Source: Rhodospirillaceae bacterium (GTDB lineage Bacteria > Pseudomonadota > Alphaproteobacteria > Dongiales > Dongiaceae). Taken from it: a DNA stretch of 64,000 nucleotides. The notes under the pieces are model-generated. The model was not told where the DNA came from. It saw only the letters and a program-made list of their open reading frames with translations, and made no database searches. The first letter of the stretch is position 1. Each line of letters begins with the position of its first letter. Shown here in pieces: positions 4,110 through 18,168 of the stretch. The stretch covers positions 1-64,000 of the forward strand of contig SSEL01000037.1 of assembly GCA_008012315.1 (NCBI GenBank). Reading direction: 5' to 3'. Made by a program: the position numbers and the translations under genes.

Positions 4110-8271
<4,162 letters not shown>

Positions 8272-8414: not shown

Positions 8415-12632
<4,218 letters not shown>

Positions 12633-12657: not shown

Positions 12658-12689
12658 AAAAGCCCCGCTGGTTACGGCGGGGCTTTTTT
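12658..12689 (+). terminator. Intrinsic terminator after rpoC
   Basis: GCCCCGC (12662-12668) pairs with GCGGGGC (12677-12683), extended by A-T pairs on the outside, and is followed by six T residues. It ends the rplKAJL-rpoBC transcription block and, read on the other strand (A-run before the stem), could also serve the convergent gene at 12717. Confidence 0.9.
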
Positions 12690-12716: not shown

Positions 12717-13874
12717 TCAGCCGGCATCCGGCACAGCATCCGGCACAGGTGCTGCCGTTCCGTTCCCGCCTTCTTTTGTCATTTCCATGATGCGCCCGAC
12801 CAGCTTCAGCAGGATACGGCTGCTTTCCTGAATATCGGCGGCATAGCTGTGATAGAGCGGCACGCCGAGCGGCCCCAGGGCTTCCTGGCGGATGACCTCG
12901 GCGCAATTGACGATTTCGTCCAAGGGGGCCAGCAATTCATTGCTCAGTTGCGCGAGCAGCCGCAGCATCGCTGCATGGTGATCCCAGCCATCCGCCGTGT
13001 TGTCGCCGCTTGCCGGCAATGGCGACCGTCGGGGCACCTCCCGCAGTGCAATCGTCAAGGCTGGCTGACCGAGCCGGGTCGTCGTGCGGCCGATAACTTC
13101 AACCGGAATTGCTTTACCGTCCAGGCGATGCAGCCGCGCCGCGACCGGCTTGGCATTGGGCAGGCTGAGTTGCGCCAGCAAATGCTCGATGCGCTGCTCC
13201 TCGTCGCCGGCGGGGGCGGTGCCGTTCATGAAGGCGCCGATCGGCGACCCTGTCAGCAATGTGGCCTCGCAGCGCAGCAGCTCTTCCGCCGCCGGGTTCG
13301 CGGCCTGGATGGTGCCGGTGGAATCCAGCAGCATCAGGGCTTCCGGAGCGGCGTCATAGACGAACCGCGCGAGATCGATGTCATGCTCCTGGACGGTGCT
13401 GATCCAGTATTGATCCACGGCATTCCGCAACCCGCGATGCTCCAGCGCATGGGCGATGTGCAGATCCAGTGTGTTGCGGTTCAGCGGCAGCGCAAGGGCG
13501 TCATCGGCACCGGCATCGATTGCATGGCGCAGATCCTCGGCCGACGGCACCAAGGCGACGATCGCCGCACGCGACAGGCCGATTTCTTGACGCAGCCCGC
13601 GCAAAGCCTCGAAATCGCGGCCGTCCGGGCAGGAGATCAGGATCAGATCCCACAAAGCCCCGCTGATACCGGTCTGCGCCGCTTCGGCAAGCGTTTCGAC
13701 ATGGCGAATTTCCCGCAGACGCCGTTGGGCGAGGCAATCCTGGATGGTCTGCAGCAGATCTTCTTCCCCGGCGATCACCAGGATGCGGCAATCTGCCTCG
13801 GAAGACGAGGTCGCTGGCGTCGTTTCGAGCCAGGAATGGATATACTGCGTCAGCAAAACACGCCCCGTCCCCAA
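12717..13874 (-). CDS. Degenerate receiver-PAS-HisKA sensor-like protein, no ATPase domain
   Basis: A 385-residue signalling relative. Residues about 29-147 resemble a response-regulator receiver, but the phospho-acceptor position is Ser81 (DLILIS) and the conserved Lys before Pro is Leu129. A PAS-like domain (about 170-280, LLDSTGTIQAANPAAEELL) follows. Residues about 300-375 match the HisKA dimerisation domain of alphaproteobacterial kinases (EALGPLG, YAADIQES), but the phospho-His is Asn312 (SNELLAPL instead of SHELRTPL) and the protein stops before any HATPase domain. It probably cannot phosphorylate; a scaffold or decoy role is an inference. The start is TTG with GAGG six bases upstream. 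It is convergent with rpoC and divergent from hpnB. Confidence 0.8.
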   Translation of the reverse strand: MGTGRVLLTQYIHSWLETTPATSSSEADCRILVIAGEEDLLQTIQDCLAQRRLREIRHVETLAEAAQTGISGALWDLILISCPDGRDFEALRGLRQEIGLSRAAIVALVPSAEDLRHAIDAGADDALALPLNRNTLDLHIAHALEHRGLRNAVDQYWISTVQEHDIDLARFVYDAAPEALMLLDSTGTIQAANPAAEELLRCEATLLTGSPIGAFMNGTAPAGDEEQRIEHLLAQLSLPNAKPVAARLHRLDGKAIPVEVIGRTTTRLGQPALTIALREVPRRSPLPASGDNTADGWDHHAAMLRLLAQLSNELLAPLDEIVNCAEVIRQEALGPLGVPLYHSYAADIQESSRILLKLVGRIMEMTKEGGNGTAAPVPDAVPDAG

Positions 13875-14001
13875 TTCTTGCCTCGCCAGTCTGGAGACAA
13901 ACCGTTAAACAAATCTTATGGTTTTGCCGCCGGTAAAGGCGGTGTTTTGCAATGCTAGATTTGGGTGGAGCGGAACGGTTTCGACCGCTATAGCTTCGAT
14001 C

Positions 14002-15174
14002 ATGACGGATATCTGGATCGCCATTGCCGGTCTTCCGGTGGGAATTTGGTTCTACCTGCTGCTCTTTCGCGGCCGCTTCTGGCTGGAATTGCCGAAGCCG
14101 GCGGTTTCGACGGCACCGGAAAGCTGGCCCGCTGTCGCCGCCGTGGTCCCGGCGCGCAATGAGGCCGGCGTGGTCGGCCAGGCGGTTGGCGCCCTGCTGC
14201 GCCAGGATTATCCCGCACCCTTTCGGGTCATCCTGGTGGATGACAACAGCGAAGACGGCACGGCCGCCGAAGCACGGGCCGCGGCCGAGGCGGCCGGGGC
14301 TGGCGATCGCCTGACGGTGGTCTCCGGCAAGCGTCTGGCCCAGGGCTGGACCGGTAAGATGTGGGCCGTGCATCAGGGGCTCGGTGCCCTGGAAAAGGCG
14401 ATGCCCTCGGCGCAATACGTGCTGTTGACCGATGCGGATATCGACCATGCACCGGACAGCCTGCGCAATCTCGTCGCCCGCGCCTGTGCCGGCGATGCGA
14501 AAGCCGGGCGATACAAACTGGTTTCGTTGATGGCGCGGCTGCGCACCGATACCTTTGCCGAGAAGGCGCTGATCCCGGCCTATGTCTTCTTTTTCCAGAT
14601 GCTCTATCCCTTCGCCTGGATCAACGATCCCAAGAGCCGCATGGCGGGTGCCGCCGGCGGCTGCATGTTGGTCGAGCGTAAGGCCCTGAAGGTGGCAGGC
14701 GGCATCGCCGCCATCAAGGATGCGCTGATCGACGATTGCGCCCTCGGCCGGGTGATGAAGAAGCAGGGGCCGATCTGGCTCGGCCTCGCCGACAATGTCT
14801 CCAGCCTGCGCGGCTATCCTGCATGGCGCGATATCTGGATGCTGATCGCGCGCTCGGCCTTCACGCAGCTCAATCATTCGGCCTTGCTGCTGATCGGCTG
14901 CGTGCTGGGAATGGTCTTCACCTATCTGCTGGCGCCGATCCTGACCGCCGATGGCAATGCCGGCAGTCGCGGCCTTGGCGTCATGGCCTGGGCGATGATG
15001 ACGCTCAGCTACCTGCCGACGCTTTACTATTATCGCCGCTCGGTTTTGTGGGCGCCCTTCCTGCCGCTGATCGCCGTCTTCTATCTCTTGGCCACGATGG
15101 ATTCCGCCCGCCGGCATTGGCTGGGCCGCGGCGGCGAGTGGAAAGGCCGCATGCAGGCCAAGAAGACGGCATGA
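14002..15174 (+). CDS. hpnB: Hopene-associated glycosyltransferase HpnB
   Basis: A 390-residue GT2-family glycosyltransferase. An N-terminal membrane segment (about 5-24) is followed by the GT-A fold with VPARNEAG, ILVDDNSEDGT and LLTDADIDHAP (nucleotide-sugar and metal Asp residues), an ALIDDCALG catalytic-region motif, and hydrophobic C-terminal spans. HpnB is repeatedly found beside hopanoid genes, but its substrate is not firmly established. It heads a run hpnB-hpnC-hpnD-hpnE with tight spacing. ATG 14002 fits the family start; an upstream in-frame extension has no similarity. Confidence 0.88.
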   Translation: MTDIWIAIAGLPVGIWFYLLLFRGRFWLELPKPAVSTAPESWPAVAAVVPARNEAGVVGQAVGALLRQDYPAPFRVILVDDNSEDGTAAEARAAAEAAGAGDRLTVVSGKRLAQGWTGKMWAVHQGLGALEKAMPSAQYVLLTDADIDHAPDSLRNLVARACAGDAKAGRYKLVSLMARLRTDTFAEKALIPAYVFFFQMLYPFAWINDPKSRMAGAAGGCMLVERKALKVAGGIAAIKDALIDDCALGRVMKKQGPIWLGLADNVSSLRGYPAWRDIWMLIARSAFTQLNHSALLLIGCVLGMVFTYLLAPILTADGNAGSRGLGVMAWAMMTLSYLPTLYYYRRSVLWAPFLPLIAVFYLLATMDSARRHWLGRGGEWKGRMQAKKTA

Positions 15175-15184
15175 GGATGCGCTG

Positions 15185-16057
15185 ATGGCCATGGCAGAAG
15201 ATATCAGCACGCCCTCGGGCAAGGATACCGGCACCGAGAATTTCCCGGTCGGCTCCATCCTCATCCGGCCGGATCTGCGCAGCCATGTGCATGTCTATTA
15301 TCGCTGGGCGCGCATGGCCGACGATATCGTCGATAATCCCGCCCTCTCGCCGGAGGACAAGATCCGCCGCCTCGATCTCATGGAAGAGGTGCTGCTCGAC
15401 CCGACGCGCCAGGATGTGCCGGTGGCCGTGGCGATGCGCGAAAGCCTGAAGGCGACGAAGCTGGATCCGGTCAATTGCACCGATCTGCTGATCGCCTTTC
15501 GTCTCGACGCCACCAAGCTGCGTTACGACGACTGGGCCGACCTGATGCATTACTGCCGCTATTCGGCCTCGCCGGTCGGCCGCTATCTGCTGACCCTGCA
15601 CGGCGAGGCGCCATCCTCGATGCCGCCCTCGGATGCGCTGTGCAATGCCTTGCAGGTGATCAATCACCTGCAGGATTGCGCACTGGATTATCGCGAGATG
15701 AACCGGGTCTATGTACCGGCGGATCATCTCGCCGCCGCGCGGATCGACGTCACCGCCTTGGATGCGCCGCGCAGCAGCCCCGCCTTGCGCCGGGTGCTGG
15801 ACCGCCTGCTGGATGAGACCGAGGAGCTGATGCAGACGGCGCGCCGCCTGCCAAGCGAGGTGCGTGACCTGCGCATGCGCTGTGAAAGCGCGGTCATCGT
15901 GCGCCTGGCGGATAAATTGATCGAGCTGCTGCGGCGGCAGGATCCGCTGGCCAGGCGGGTGAAGTTGAAGAAGCCGGCGATCGCGCTGGCGACATTGCAG
16001 GGAATCGGCCGCGCGGTGCTGCAGGGCGGGCCGTCACGGAAATCGGGGATGCAATGA
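15185..16057 (+). CDS. hpnC: HpnC, hydroxysqualene synthase of the HpnCDE squalene pathway
   Basis: A 290-residue trans-isoprenyl-diphosphate synthase (squalene/phytoene synthase fold). In the HpnCDE pathway, HpnD makes presqualene diphosphate, HpnC converts it to hydroxysqualene and HpnE reduces that to squalene. The first Asp-rich motif is MADDIVDN and the second region is NHLQDCALDYREMNRVYVP. It starts 10 bases after hpnB and overlaps hpnD by 4 bases (ATGA), so translation is probably coupled. Confidence 0.92.
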   Translation: MAMAEDISTPSGKDTGTENFPVGSILIRPDLRSHVHVYYRWARMADDIVDNPALSPEDKIRRLDLMEEVLLDPTRQDVPVAVAMRESLKATKLDPVNCTDLLIAFRLDATKLRYDDWADLMHYCRYSASPVGRYLLTLHGEAPSSMPPSDALCNALQVINHLQDCALDYREMNRVYVPADHLAAARIDVTALDAPRSSPALRRVLDRLLDETEELMQTARRLPSEVRDLRMRCESAVIVRLADKLIELLRRQDPLARRVKLKKPAIALATLQGIGRAVLQGGPSRKSGMQ

Positions 16058-16905
16058 CGGTCGATATCGATAATGCGCTGACGGAGGAGATCGCCGCCAA
16101 GGTGCGGGCGGCCGGCTCGTCGTTCTACAGCGCCATGCGCCTGCTGGCGCCGGACCGCCGGAATGCGATGTATGCGATCTATGCGTTCTGCCGCGAGGTC
16201 GACGATATCGCCGATGACGACGGTCTCAGCGACCAGGAGCGGCATCGCCGGCTGACCGACTGGCGGATCGAAATCGATCGCCTCTATCGCGGCGAGCCGC
16301 AGCATCCGGTGGCACGTGCTTTGCTGCCTTATGTCCGGATGTTCGATCTGCGGCGCGATGATTTCATCGCCGTCATCGACGGCATGGAGATGGACGCCGT
16401 CGTCATCCAGGCGCCGAGCCTGGCCGAACTCGATCTTTATTGCGACCGGGTGGCGAGTGCGGTCGGTCGCCTCTCGGTACGGGCTTTCGGCTCGCGTGAA
16501 CCGCAGGCCGATACGGTCGCGCATCATCTCGGCCGGGCGCTGCAATTGACCAATATCCTGCGCGATATCAGCGAGGATGCCGCCCGCGACCGGCTCTATC
16601 TGCCGCGTGAAATCCTGCAGCAGCATGGCATCGAGGGGACCCAGCCGCAGGCGGTCCTGACGCATCCGAAATTGCGCGCCGTGTGCCGCGAGATGGCGGC
16701 CAAGGCGGAGGATCATTTCATCAAGGCCCAGGCGGCGATGCGGCAATGCTCCAAGCAGGCGATGCGGCCGGCGGCGGTGATGGGCGCCATGTATCACGCC
16801 ATTCTCGACAAGCTGGTCGCCGCCGATTGGCGCGACCTGACACAGCCGGTATCGGTGCCGAAATGGCGCAAGCTGTGGATCGCCTTGCGCCACGGGTTCC
16901 TTTGA
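16054..16905 (+). CDS. hpnD: HpnD, presqualene diphosphate synthase
   Basis: A 283-residue squalene/phytoene synthase homologue, condensing two farnesyl diphosphates to presqualene diphosphate. It carries SSFYSAMRLLAPDRRNAMYAIYAFCREVDDIADD at the N-terminus (first Asp-rich motif) and LTNILRDISEDAARDRLYLP as the second. The ATG overlaps the hpnC stop and the TGA directly abuts the hpnE ATG, making hpnCDE one translational unit. Confidence 0.94.
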   Translation: MTVDIDNALTEEIAAKVRAAGSSFYSAMRLLAPDRRNAMYAIYAFCREVDDIADDDGLSDQERHRRLTDWRIEIDRLYRGEPQHPVARALLPYVRMFDLRRDDFIAVIDGMEMDAVVIQAPSLAELDLYCDRVASAVGRLSVRAFGSREPQADTVAHHLGRALQLTNILRDISEDAARDRLYLPREILQQHGIEGTQPQAVLTHPKLRAVCREMAAKAEDHFIKAQAAMRQCSKQAMRPAAVMGAMYHAILDKLVAADWRDLTQPVSVPKWRKLWIALRHGFL

Positions 16906-18168
16906 ATGACCAGGGAAAAGACGGTGCCTGGCCGCGTACATATCGTCGGCGCCGGTCTCGCCGGCCTGTCGGCGGCGGCGCGCCTTTGCCGCGCCGGTAA
17001 ACCGGTCATCCTCTATGAAGCGGCGCAGCAGGCCGGTGGTCGTTGCCGCTCCTATGACGACAGCGATCTCGGCTGCCGGCTCGATAACGGCAACCATCTG
17101 ATGGTCACCGGCAATCTCGCTGCCATGGCCTATATCGCCGAGATCGGCGCGGCCTCGACCGTGGTGACGCAGGATATGGCGGTCTATCCCTTCATCGATC
17201 TGCGGACCGGGGAACGCTGGACGGTGCGGCCGACCGAAGGGCGCTTTCCCTGGTGGATCTTCTTCCCCCATCGCCGGGTCGCCGGGACGCGCCTCCGCGA
17301 TTACCTTGCGGTCCTGAAGATGCAGCGGGCCGGCCCCGATGCCACCGTGGCGCAATGTTTCGATCCGGATGCCGTGCTCTATCGCCGGCTATGGTCGCCC
17401 TTGGCGATCGCGGTGCTGAATACTGAACCCGTCAATGCCTCGGCGCAAAGCCTGTGGTCGGTCTTCGCCGAGACCTTCGGCAAGGGCGGCGCGGCCTTGC
17501 ATCCGGTCCTGCCGCGCCTCGGCCTGTCGGAAACCCTGGTCGATCCGGCGCTCGCCATGCTGGCGCAGCGTGGCGGCGAGATCCGCTACGGCCATCGCTT
17601 GCGGGGCCTGGCTTATGAAGGCGACCGTGTCAGCCGGCTCGATTTCGGCAAAATGCAGGTCGATGTCGCCGTTGAAGATGACGTGATCCTGGCGGTGACG
17701 CCATCCGTCGCGGCCGACCTGCTGCCGGATATCACGGCGCCGGATTCCTTCCGCGCCATCGTCAATGCGCATTACCGCTGCGAGGACATCACCGGCGAGC
17801 CGAGCTTCACCGGCGTGATCGGCGGGACCGCGGAATGGGTCTTCAAGAAGCGGGGTATTCTCTCCGTCACCTGCAGCGCCGCCGAGGCGCTGGTTGATCG
17901 CCCGGCCGAGGAATTGGCGCCACTGATCTGGCGTGATGTGGCGAAAGTCCATGGACGCGATGCGGATAAAATGCCGCCCTGGCGCATCGTCAAGGAGAAG
18001 CGCGCGACCTTTGCCGCGACGCCGGAACAGTTGCGCCGCCGGCCGGGTCTGAAGACAGCTTGCAGCAATCTCTGGTTGGCCGGCGACTGGGTCGAAACCG
18101 GCTGGCCGGCGACCATCGAAGGCGCCATCCGCTCGGGTTTCGCCGCAGCCACCGCAGTGGCCGGCTGA
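16906..18168 (+). CDS. hpnE: HpnE, squalene-forming FAD-dependent desaturase/reductase
   Basis: A 420-residue flavoprotein of the amine oxidase/phytoene desaturase group. The N-terminal dinucleotide fold HIVGAGLAGLSAAARL binds FAD, and the C-terminal LWLAGDWVETGWPATIEGAI completes the flavin site. In the HpnCDE route it reduces hydroxysqualene to squalene. The gene starts right at the hpnD stop. The next gene is not squalene-hopene cyclase, so the cyclase must be elsewhere. Confidence 0.93.
   Translation: MTREKTVPGRVHIVGAGLAGLSAAARLCRAGKPVILYEAAQQAGGRCRSYDDSDLGCRLDNGNHLMVTGNLAAMAYIAEIGAASTVVTQDMAVYPFIDLRTGERWTVRPTEGRFPWWIFFPHRRVAGTRLRDYLAVLKMQRAGPDATVAQCFDPDAVLYRRLWSPLAIAVLNTEPVNASAQSLWSVFAETFGKGGAALHPVLPRLGLSETLVDPALAMLAQRGGEIRYGHRLRGLAYEGDRVSRLDFGKMQVDVAVEDDVILAVTPSVAADLLPDITAPDSFRAIVNAHYRCEDITGEPSFTGVIGGTAEWVFKKRGILSVTCSAAEALVDRPAEELAPLIWRDVAKVHGRDADKMPPWRIVKEKRATFAATPEQLRRRPGLKTACSNLWLAGDWVETGWPATIEGAIRSGFAAATAVAG

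Follow-up and report, generated by a model that had tools for sequence, protein, structure and literature searches.

The window, by which we mean the whole 64,000-nucleotide stretch of DNA that was analysed here, carries on its minus strand a gene for a pseudo-histidine kinase, which lies tail-to-tail with rpoC and head-to-head with hpnB. The features at this locus are given below, where g1 stands for the genus of the window organism, and g4 and g7 for two other genera of the same GTDB family.

8424..12632, plus strand: rpoC, the tail-to-tail neighbour (NCBIfam rpoC_TIGR, above cut-off)
12658-12687: terminator-like hairpin after rpoC, strong, with 13 pairs and a T run
12717..13874, minus strand: pseudo-histidine kinase gene, receiver-PAS-DHp, 385 amino acids from a TTG start (open reading frame, translation, codon score)
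12774..12977, minus strand: degenerate HisKA/DHp hairpin, residues 300-367 (HisKA below cut-off; core kept, polar positions lost)
12939..12941, minus strand: Asn312 codon, phospho-His position (His in 6/6 g7 and Lys in 4/4 g4 sequences)
13038..13367, minus strand: PAS domain, residues 170-279 (Pfam PAS_8, 27.5 bits, above cut-off)
13443..13790, minus strand: pseudo-receiver domain, residues 29-144 (Response_reg below cut-off; KdpE 3e-4; model secondary structure; homologous to the g4 receiver)
13488..13490, minus strand: Leu129 codon, position of the conserved receiver Lys (Glu in 4/4 g4 sequences)
13632..13634, minus strand: Ser81 codon, position of the receiver phospho-Asp (Asp in 4/4 g4 sequences)
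13856, minus strand: in-frame TTG, alternative start of the pseudo-histidine kinase gene
13875..14001, no strand: divergent intergenic region between the pseudokinase gene and hpnB (50% G+C vs. 62% for the window)
14002..15174, plus strand: hpnB, hopene-associated glycosyltransferase (NCBIfam HpnB, 515.9 bits, above cut-off)
15185..16057, plus strand: hpnC (NCBIfam HpnC, above cut-off)
16054..16905, plus strand: hpnD (NCBIfam HpnD, above cut-off)
16906..18168, plus strand: hpnE (NCBIfam HpnE, above cut-off)

The 385-codon frame at 12717-13874 is coding-like, with 0.33 bits per codon vs. -1.31 to 0.04 in the five other frames, and the coding-like codon use extends over all three domains of the protein; the score of hpnB is 0.49. 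An antisense open frame of 369 codons runs along the plus strand at 12849-13958; with a codon score close to zero, it probably arises as a side effect of codon bias. Only 84 bases separate the rpoC stop codon from the end of the pseudokinase gene, which leaves no room for an ATPase remnant of any length. At the other end, a preliminary description of this DNA had placed the gene head-to-head with hpnB, and the minus-strand gene does adjoin hpnB; what changes is the start of the latter. The 28 codons before 14002 score as non-coding (-0.75 bits per codon vs. 0.49 for the remainder), and thus hpnB more likely starts at 14002 than at 13918, which leaves a divergent gap of about 127 bases. No sigma-70-like site was found in this intergenic region (13875..14001), and no response regulator was seen beside the pseudokinase gene.

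The identification of a pseudo-histidine kinase with Ser81, Leu129 and Asn312 (residues counted from the TTG start) and no ATPase domain, already made in the preliminary description, is confirmed by alignment and Pfam. The residues named there were correct, but the list of catalytic losses was short. In the receiver, three conserved features of PF00072 have been replaced: the phospho-Asp by Ser81, the acidic pair by Ala35-Gly36 in the alignment, and the Lys by Leu129; Response_reg scores 14.3 bits with a cut-off of 30.2. In the HisKA region (15.7 bits, with a cut-off of 26.9), the H-box reads N-E-L-L-A-P, so that the H+3 Arg and the H+4 Thr are gone in addition to the His. HATPase has no Pfam match in the protein at E-values up to 10, and none within 600 bp downstream. 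The Pfam scan of the protein found no DNA-binding domain either. The DHp hairpin is present with its hydrophobic core, and ten of ten sequences in one alignment carry the hairpin motif E-x-x-G-x-x-G-x-x-x-Y-x-x-Y without change. Judged by these residues, and given what is established about HisKA proteins, the window protein can neither autophosphorylate nor take part in phosphotransfer, and it lacks the usual H+4 phosphatase residue. An AlphaFold2 model built from a two-sequence input, which is weak (mean pLDDT 57, pTM 0.37), runs from a (beta-alpha)5 unit through a PAS-like unit to two long helices, where it ends; receiver and PAS domains are the top Foldseek matches of this weak model, as expected.

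Could this protein be the DivL of the organism? The genome has 52 HisKA matches (E-values up to 0.01), 49 of them with an HATPase_c match within 600 bases downstream; the three that lack one are the window gene and two weak matches whose frames have 231 and 219 codons. The letter at the His site was read in the 30 of these 52 that have extracted loci, and it is His in 29. The remaining one, L128 (contig C60, 157714-157917, minus strand), has Tyr at that site. Among solved structures it is closest to DivL 4q20 (E-value 6e-35), and L128 is most likely the genome's own DivL. The idea that the window gene is DivL itself is rejected: L128 is the one whose best structural match is 4q20, and the window gene falls with genes of g7 and g4 in both position and tree. 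With L128 already a Tyr-type DivL candidate, the window gene is therefore a second, different pseudo-histidine kinase of this genome.

Our sample of the GTDB family has 17 genomes from 7 genera, with the window genus represented by one genome. The orthologous gene, which we call X, was found in 11 of the 17, namely the window, all four g4 genomes and six of the seven g7 genomes. The order rpoC-X-hpnB is contiguous in the window and in the g7 genomes G006, G009, G011 and G013. In G015 and G016, also g7, rpoC is followed by X, where the contig stops, and hpnB is found close to the end of a different contig. The seventh, G014, has rpoC and hpnB 187 bases apart with nothing between them (L078, about 7979-8166); it has lost the kinase gene, which is thus dispensable there. 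In three g4 genomes (G003, G007 and G010), X and hpnB are divergent and are separated by one to three other genes. These are an EamA transporter confirmed by domain scan in G007; a putative EamA, from reading of the sequence, and a scanned TetR regulator in G003; and, all three putative and read in the same way, EamA, a TetR-like frame and a methyltransferase-like frame in G010. Also in g4, the EamA transporter of locus L065 (7522-8469, minus strand) is the gene immediately upstream of hpnB and has the same orientation. In G012, the fourth g4 genome, X and hpnB are on different contigs. X was not seen in the stretch around hpnB in G001, G004, G005 or G008, and the best hpnB match of G002 is weak. 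The pairing with hpnB, which the preliminary description had singled out, is thus borne out as a position beside hpnB kept in three genera. Moreover, because X stays near hpnB in g4 and the examined g4 stretches have no rpoC match, the positional link looks stronger to hpnB than to rpoC.

In g7, X is a PAS-HisKA-HATPase kinase without a receiver. Its H-E-L-R-T-P is kept in six of six sequences, and both HisKA and HATPase_c are above the Pfam cut-off in the four that were scanned. In g4, X has the receiver-PAS-DHp layout plus a decayed ATPase domain, and reads K-E-V-T-T-R in four of four, with Lys for His; of two g4 proteins scanned with Pfam, HisKA is seen in neither, and HATPase_c reaches 12.7 bits (below cut-off) in one and is absent in the other. 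In the g4 receiver, the phospho-Asp is still there, but the acidic pair is gone and Glu stands in place of Lys. The idea that Asn312, Ser81 and the truncated end might be conserved does not hold up, as they are common to no orthologue seen: g4 has Lys, Asp and the decayed ATPase domain.

Among 385 genomes sampled from the class, we found no orthologue with the full layout outside the family, and the best matches are PAS-kinase or receiver-PAS proteins. A scan of contigs with the g1 and g4 alignment gave two loci, a MAG contig matching G007 (L083) and a weak match in Rhizobium. Receiver proteins of about 350 amino acids from other families were considered as fellow truncated pseudokinases and rejected; the four examined have intact receivers and are putative receiver-cyclase proteins. 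Two other loci, L139 and L140 (in G114 and G055), have intact receivers and a g4-like linker before a PAS domain in what read as putative GGDEF/EAL proteins. The comparison suggests that receiver-PAS proteins of the G114/G055 type may have been the source of the receiver-linker module.

The history of the gene can be followed with two trees. In the tree of HpnB-E, g1 is sister to g4 with support 100, and g7 comes next with 98. The PAS-DHp tree (43 sequences) sets g1, g4 and g7 apart from other kinases with support 79 and joins g1 with g4 with 80, which are moderate supports. The other kinases in this tree come from 64 other loci offered to the profile, of which 32 had sufficient coverage and were kept; the tree includes the duplicate loci L094 and L098, which were removed from the DHp column comparisons. 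The branch of g4 is 2.2 substitutions per site long vs. 0.67 for g1, and the window DHp is 46-51% identical to that of g7 and 28% to that of g4, as expected if g4 is the one that changed most. Receiver, linker (36-40% identity) and PAS are common to g1 and g4. The most economical history gives the common ancestor a PAS kinase and the ancestor shared by g1 and g4 a receiver-PAS-DHp form. Since the site residue is Asn in the window and Lys in g4, the dead state may have been reached twice, with the His lost to Asn in g1 and to Lys in g4; for the same reason, that the present residues differ, the loss of the His may have come before or after the g1/g4 split.

Is there selection on a kinase that is dead? 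We calculated dN/dS by the simple NG86 method within g4 and within g7 only, because synonymous change is saturated between genera. In the four g4 genomes, the whole-gene dN/dS is 0.125-0.425, vs. 0.097-0.350 for hpnB in the same pairs, and all upper bootstrap bounds for the whole gene are at or below 0.55. The dead kinase of g4 is under purifying selection. The dN/dS check that the preliminary description had proposed is answered in this way at the level of g4. By domain, the DHp has the lowest dN/dS of the four (0.02-0.05) in three of the six g4 pairs, those without G012; in the three pairs with G012, the DHp value of 0.17-0.39 is not the lowest of the four domains, and its intervals are wide, reaching as high as 1.10. 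Invariant positions number 54/63 in the DHp, 79/109 in the PAS, 72/124 in the receiver and 85/146 in the ATPase region. By this measure, the dead phospho-acceptor domain is the best-kept part of the g4 protein.

For the window copy, we compared rates with g7. In the PAS-DHp region, where the window was set against four of the six g7 sequences with seven outgroups, g1 has more changes of its own than g7 in 28/28 comparisons, and p is below 0.05 in 14/28, the comparisons not being independent. By domain, against G013 with four outgroups, the DHp has 15-16 own changes in the window vs. 4-5 in g7, and the PAS has 7-9 in the window vs. 12-15 in g7. The rate excess of the window lies wholly in the DHp, and its PAS is no faster than that of g7. 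As for what changed, the window DHp keeps 24/25 hydrophobic columns, exactly as g7 does (24/25), in agreement with the earlier view that the core is kept, and 9/10 of its changed hydrophobic columns remain hydrophobic. On the other hand, it keeps 11/28 conserved polar columns vs. 20/28 in g7 (p 0.03). The hydrophobic test is lenient, as any of nine residues counts while a polar column needs identity, and the fair comparison is the one with g7 under the same rule. Read from these columns, the window DHp has shed polar catalytic and docking residues and has kept its hydrophobic core.

Our best explanation, which we hold at about even chances, is that the window gene belongs to an old pseudo-histidine-kinase lineage and has been kept as a PAS-sensing dimer acting by protein contact. 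Support is good at the level of the lineage, and moderate for the window copy. The lineage would descend from an hpn-linked PAS sensor kinase, and the window protein would be a soluble, non-catalytic dimer; the remaining PAS and a helical hairpin with its core fit a dimer working by contact. The PAS would still answer a cue, and would thereby alter the DHp four-helix bundle. The output would then be a protein contact and not phosphotransfer, most likely one in which the DHp pairs with a second copy of itself or with its counterpart in an intact kinase in the manner of RetS and GacS, and probably not the docking of a response regulator in the manner of DivL. Signal, target, and homo- or heterodimer state are all part of what we infer.

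The proposed analogy is with RetS of Pseudomonas, which works by DHp-DHp contact with an intact kinase: according to PMC12148439, RetS replaces the DHp partner of GacS and forms a DHp heterodimer. The kinase domain of RetS matches the family profile, but RetS is a membrane kinase with an intact ATPase-type domain. Another likeness is with the ChrS pseudokinase of Corynebacterium, which has lost a working CA domain by frameshift and whose DHp is still needed: without the ATPase domain it raises heme tolerance only when the DHp is present, and the two-hybrid assays described in the same source saw no heterodimer of the truncated ChrS (PMC9491836). ChrS, however, arose in laboratory evolution, and the likeness is one of function. 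The PAS histidine kinase of g7 between rpoC and hpnB is a syntenic orthologue, similar in its DHp, with His, Arg, Thr and ATPase domain intact and no receiver.

The evidence also has to be weighed for other readings, starting with decay. The lineage may once have functioned as a pseudokinase or kinase, with the window copy, its ATPase domain lost, now on its way out; we regard this as rather unlikely. The ATPase domain is cleanly absent, the DHp is accelerated, the gene has been lost in G014, the sample has only one genome of g1, and the codon score is below that of hpnB, all of which would fit. The open frame of 385 codons, the coding-like codons in all three domains, a PAS that is not accelerated, the kept core and the kept position argue for a maintained gene, yet every one of them is also compatible with a recent loss. 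The preliminary description had held that orthologues with an intact His and HATPase domain would make this a recent pseudogene or a truncation. Such orthologues do exist in g7, but the recent decay of an intact kinase into a pseudogene is rejected as the sole account, because the sister genus g4 is also dead and under constraint.

A DivL-like adaptor, in which a phosphorylated single-domain response regulator docks on the dead DHp and its information is relayed to another kinase, is improbable. DivL also joins a PAS to a DHp of the same broad kind, has a non-phosphorylatable His site, and functions without its ATPase domain (PMC4211667), and the window DHp belongs to the DivJ/PdhS type (NCBIfam DivJ at 2.7e-8, well under the curated cut-off). 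However, DivL binds DivK~P via R553, T557, Y562 and H579 (PMC4211667), and the first three, mapped through the alignment of L128, correspond to Leu315, Asp319 and Cys324 in the window protein, and to Thr, Asp and Asn in g4. These docking residues are lost, and the genome encodes a Tyr-type DivL of its own (L128), so a response regulator is unlikely to dock in the DivL way, which weakens the earlier suggestion of response regulator binding. The window protein differs from DivL also in its locus and its N-terminal receiver. More improbable still is a local regulator that acts through a dedicated partner on the divergent hpn operon, so that lipid synthesis follows the PAS signal. All three genera retain the divergent position, g4 despite a changed rpoC neighbourhood, but one to three genes intervene in g4, the protein has no DNA-binding domain, no response regulator is seen beside the gene, and the literature gave no link between hpnB or hopanoids and a histidine kinase, including among the matches listed in a wider search. 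The link to membrane lipid control that had been raised for this gene has the kept position in its favour, and is only positional.

We return to the contact-acting dimer and to what it would mean. HisKA domains that lack the phospho-His are rare, at 722 of 76,471 (0.9%), and receivers that have the fold without Asp and Lys make up about 6% of bacterial receivers (PMC12632262). The window pseudo-receiver is of this sort, but here it is fused to a dead kinase. The window protein is a known kind in a new form: a receiver, a PAS and a DHp with both phosphate-handling domains dead.

To our knowledge, few His-less HisKA domains have a traced evolutionary path. We suggest, tentatively, that a kinase of this family became a phosphate-free sensor: a switchable dimer, dead in its receiver and DHp but live in its PAS, that would pair with intact kinases or titrate them. 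It is possible, though doubtful, that the three genera present the steps side by side, with g7 working, g4 full-length and dead under purifying selection, and the window stripped down without the ATPase domain. The syntenic orthologues are found in three states: active, dead at full length, and dead and truncated. Why does a kinase fold stay once its chemistry is gone? A family with these three states allows that question to be put to a direct test.
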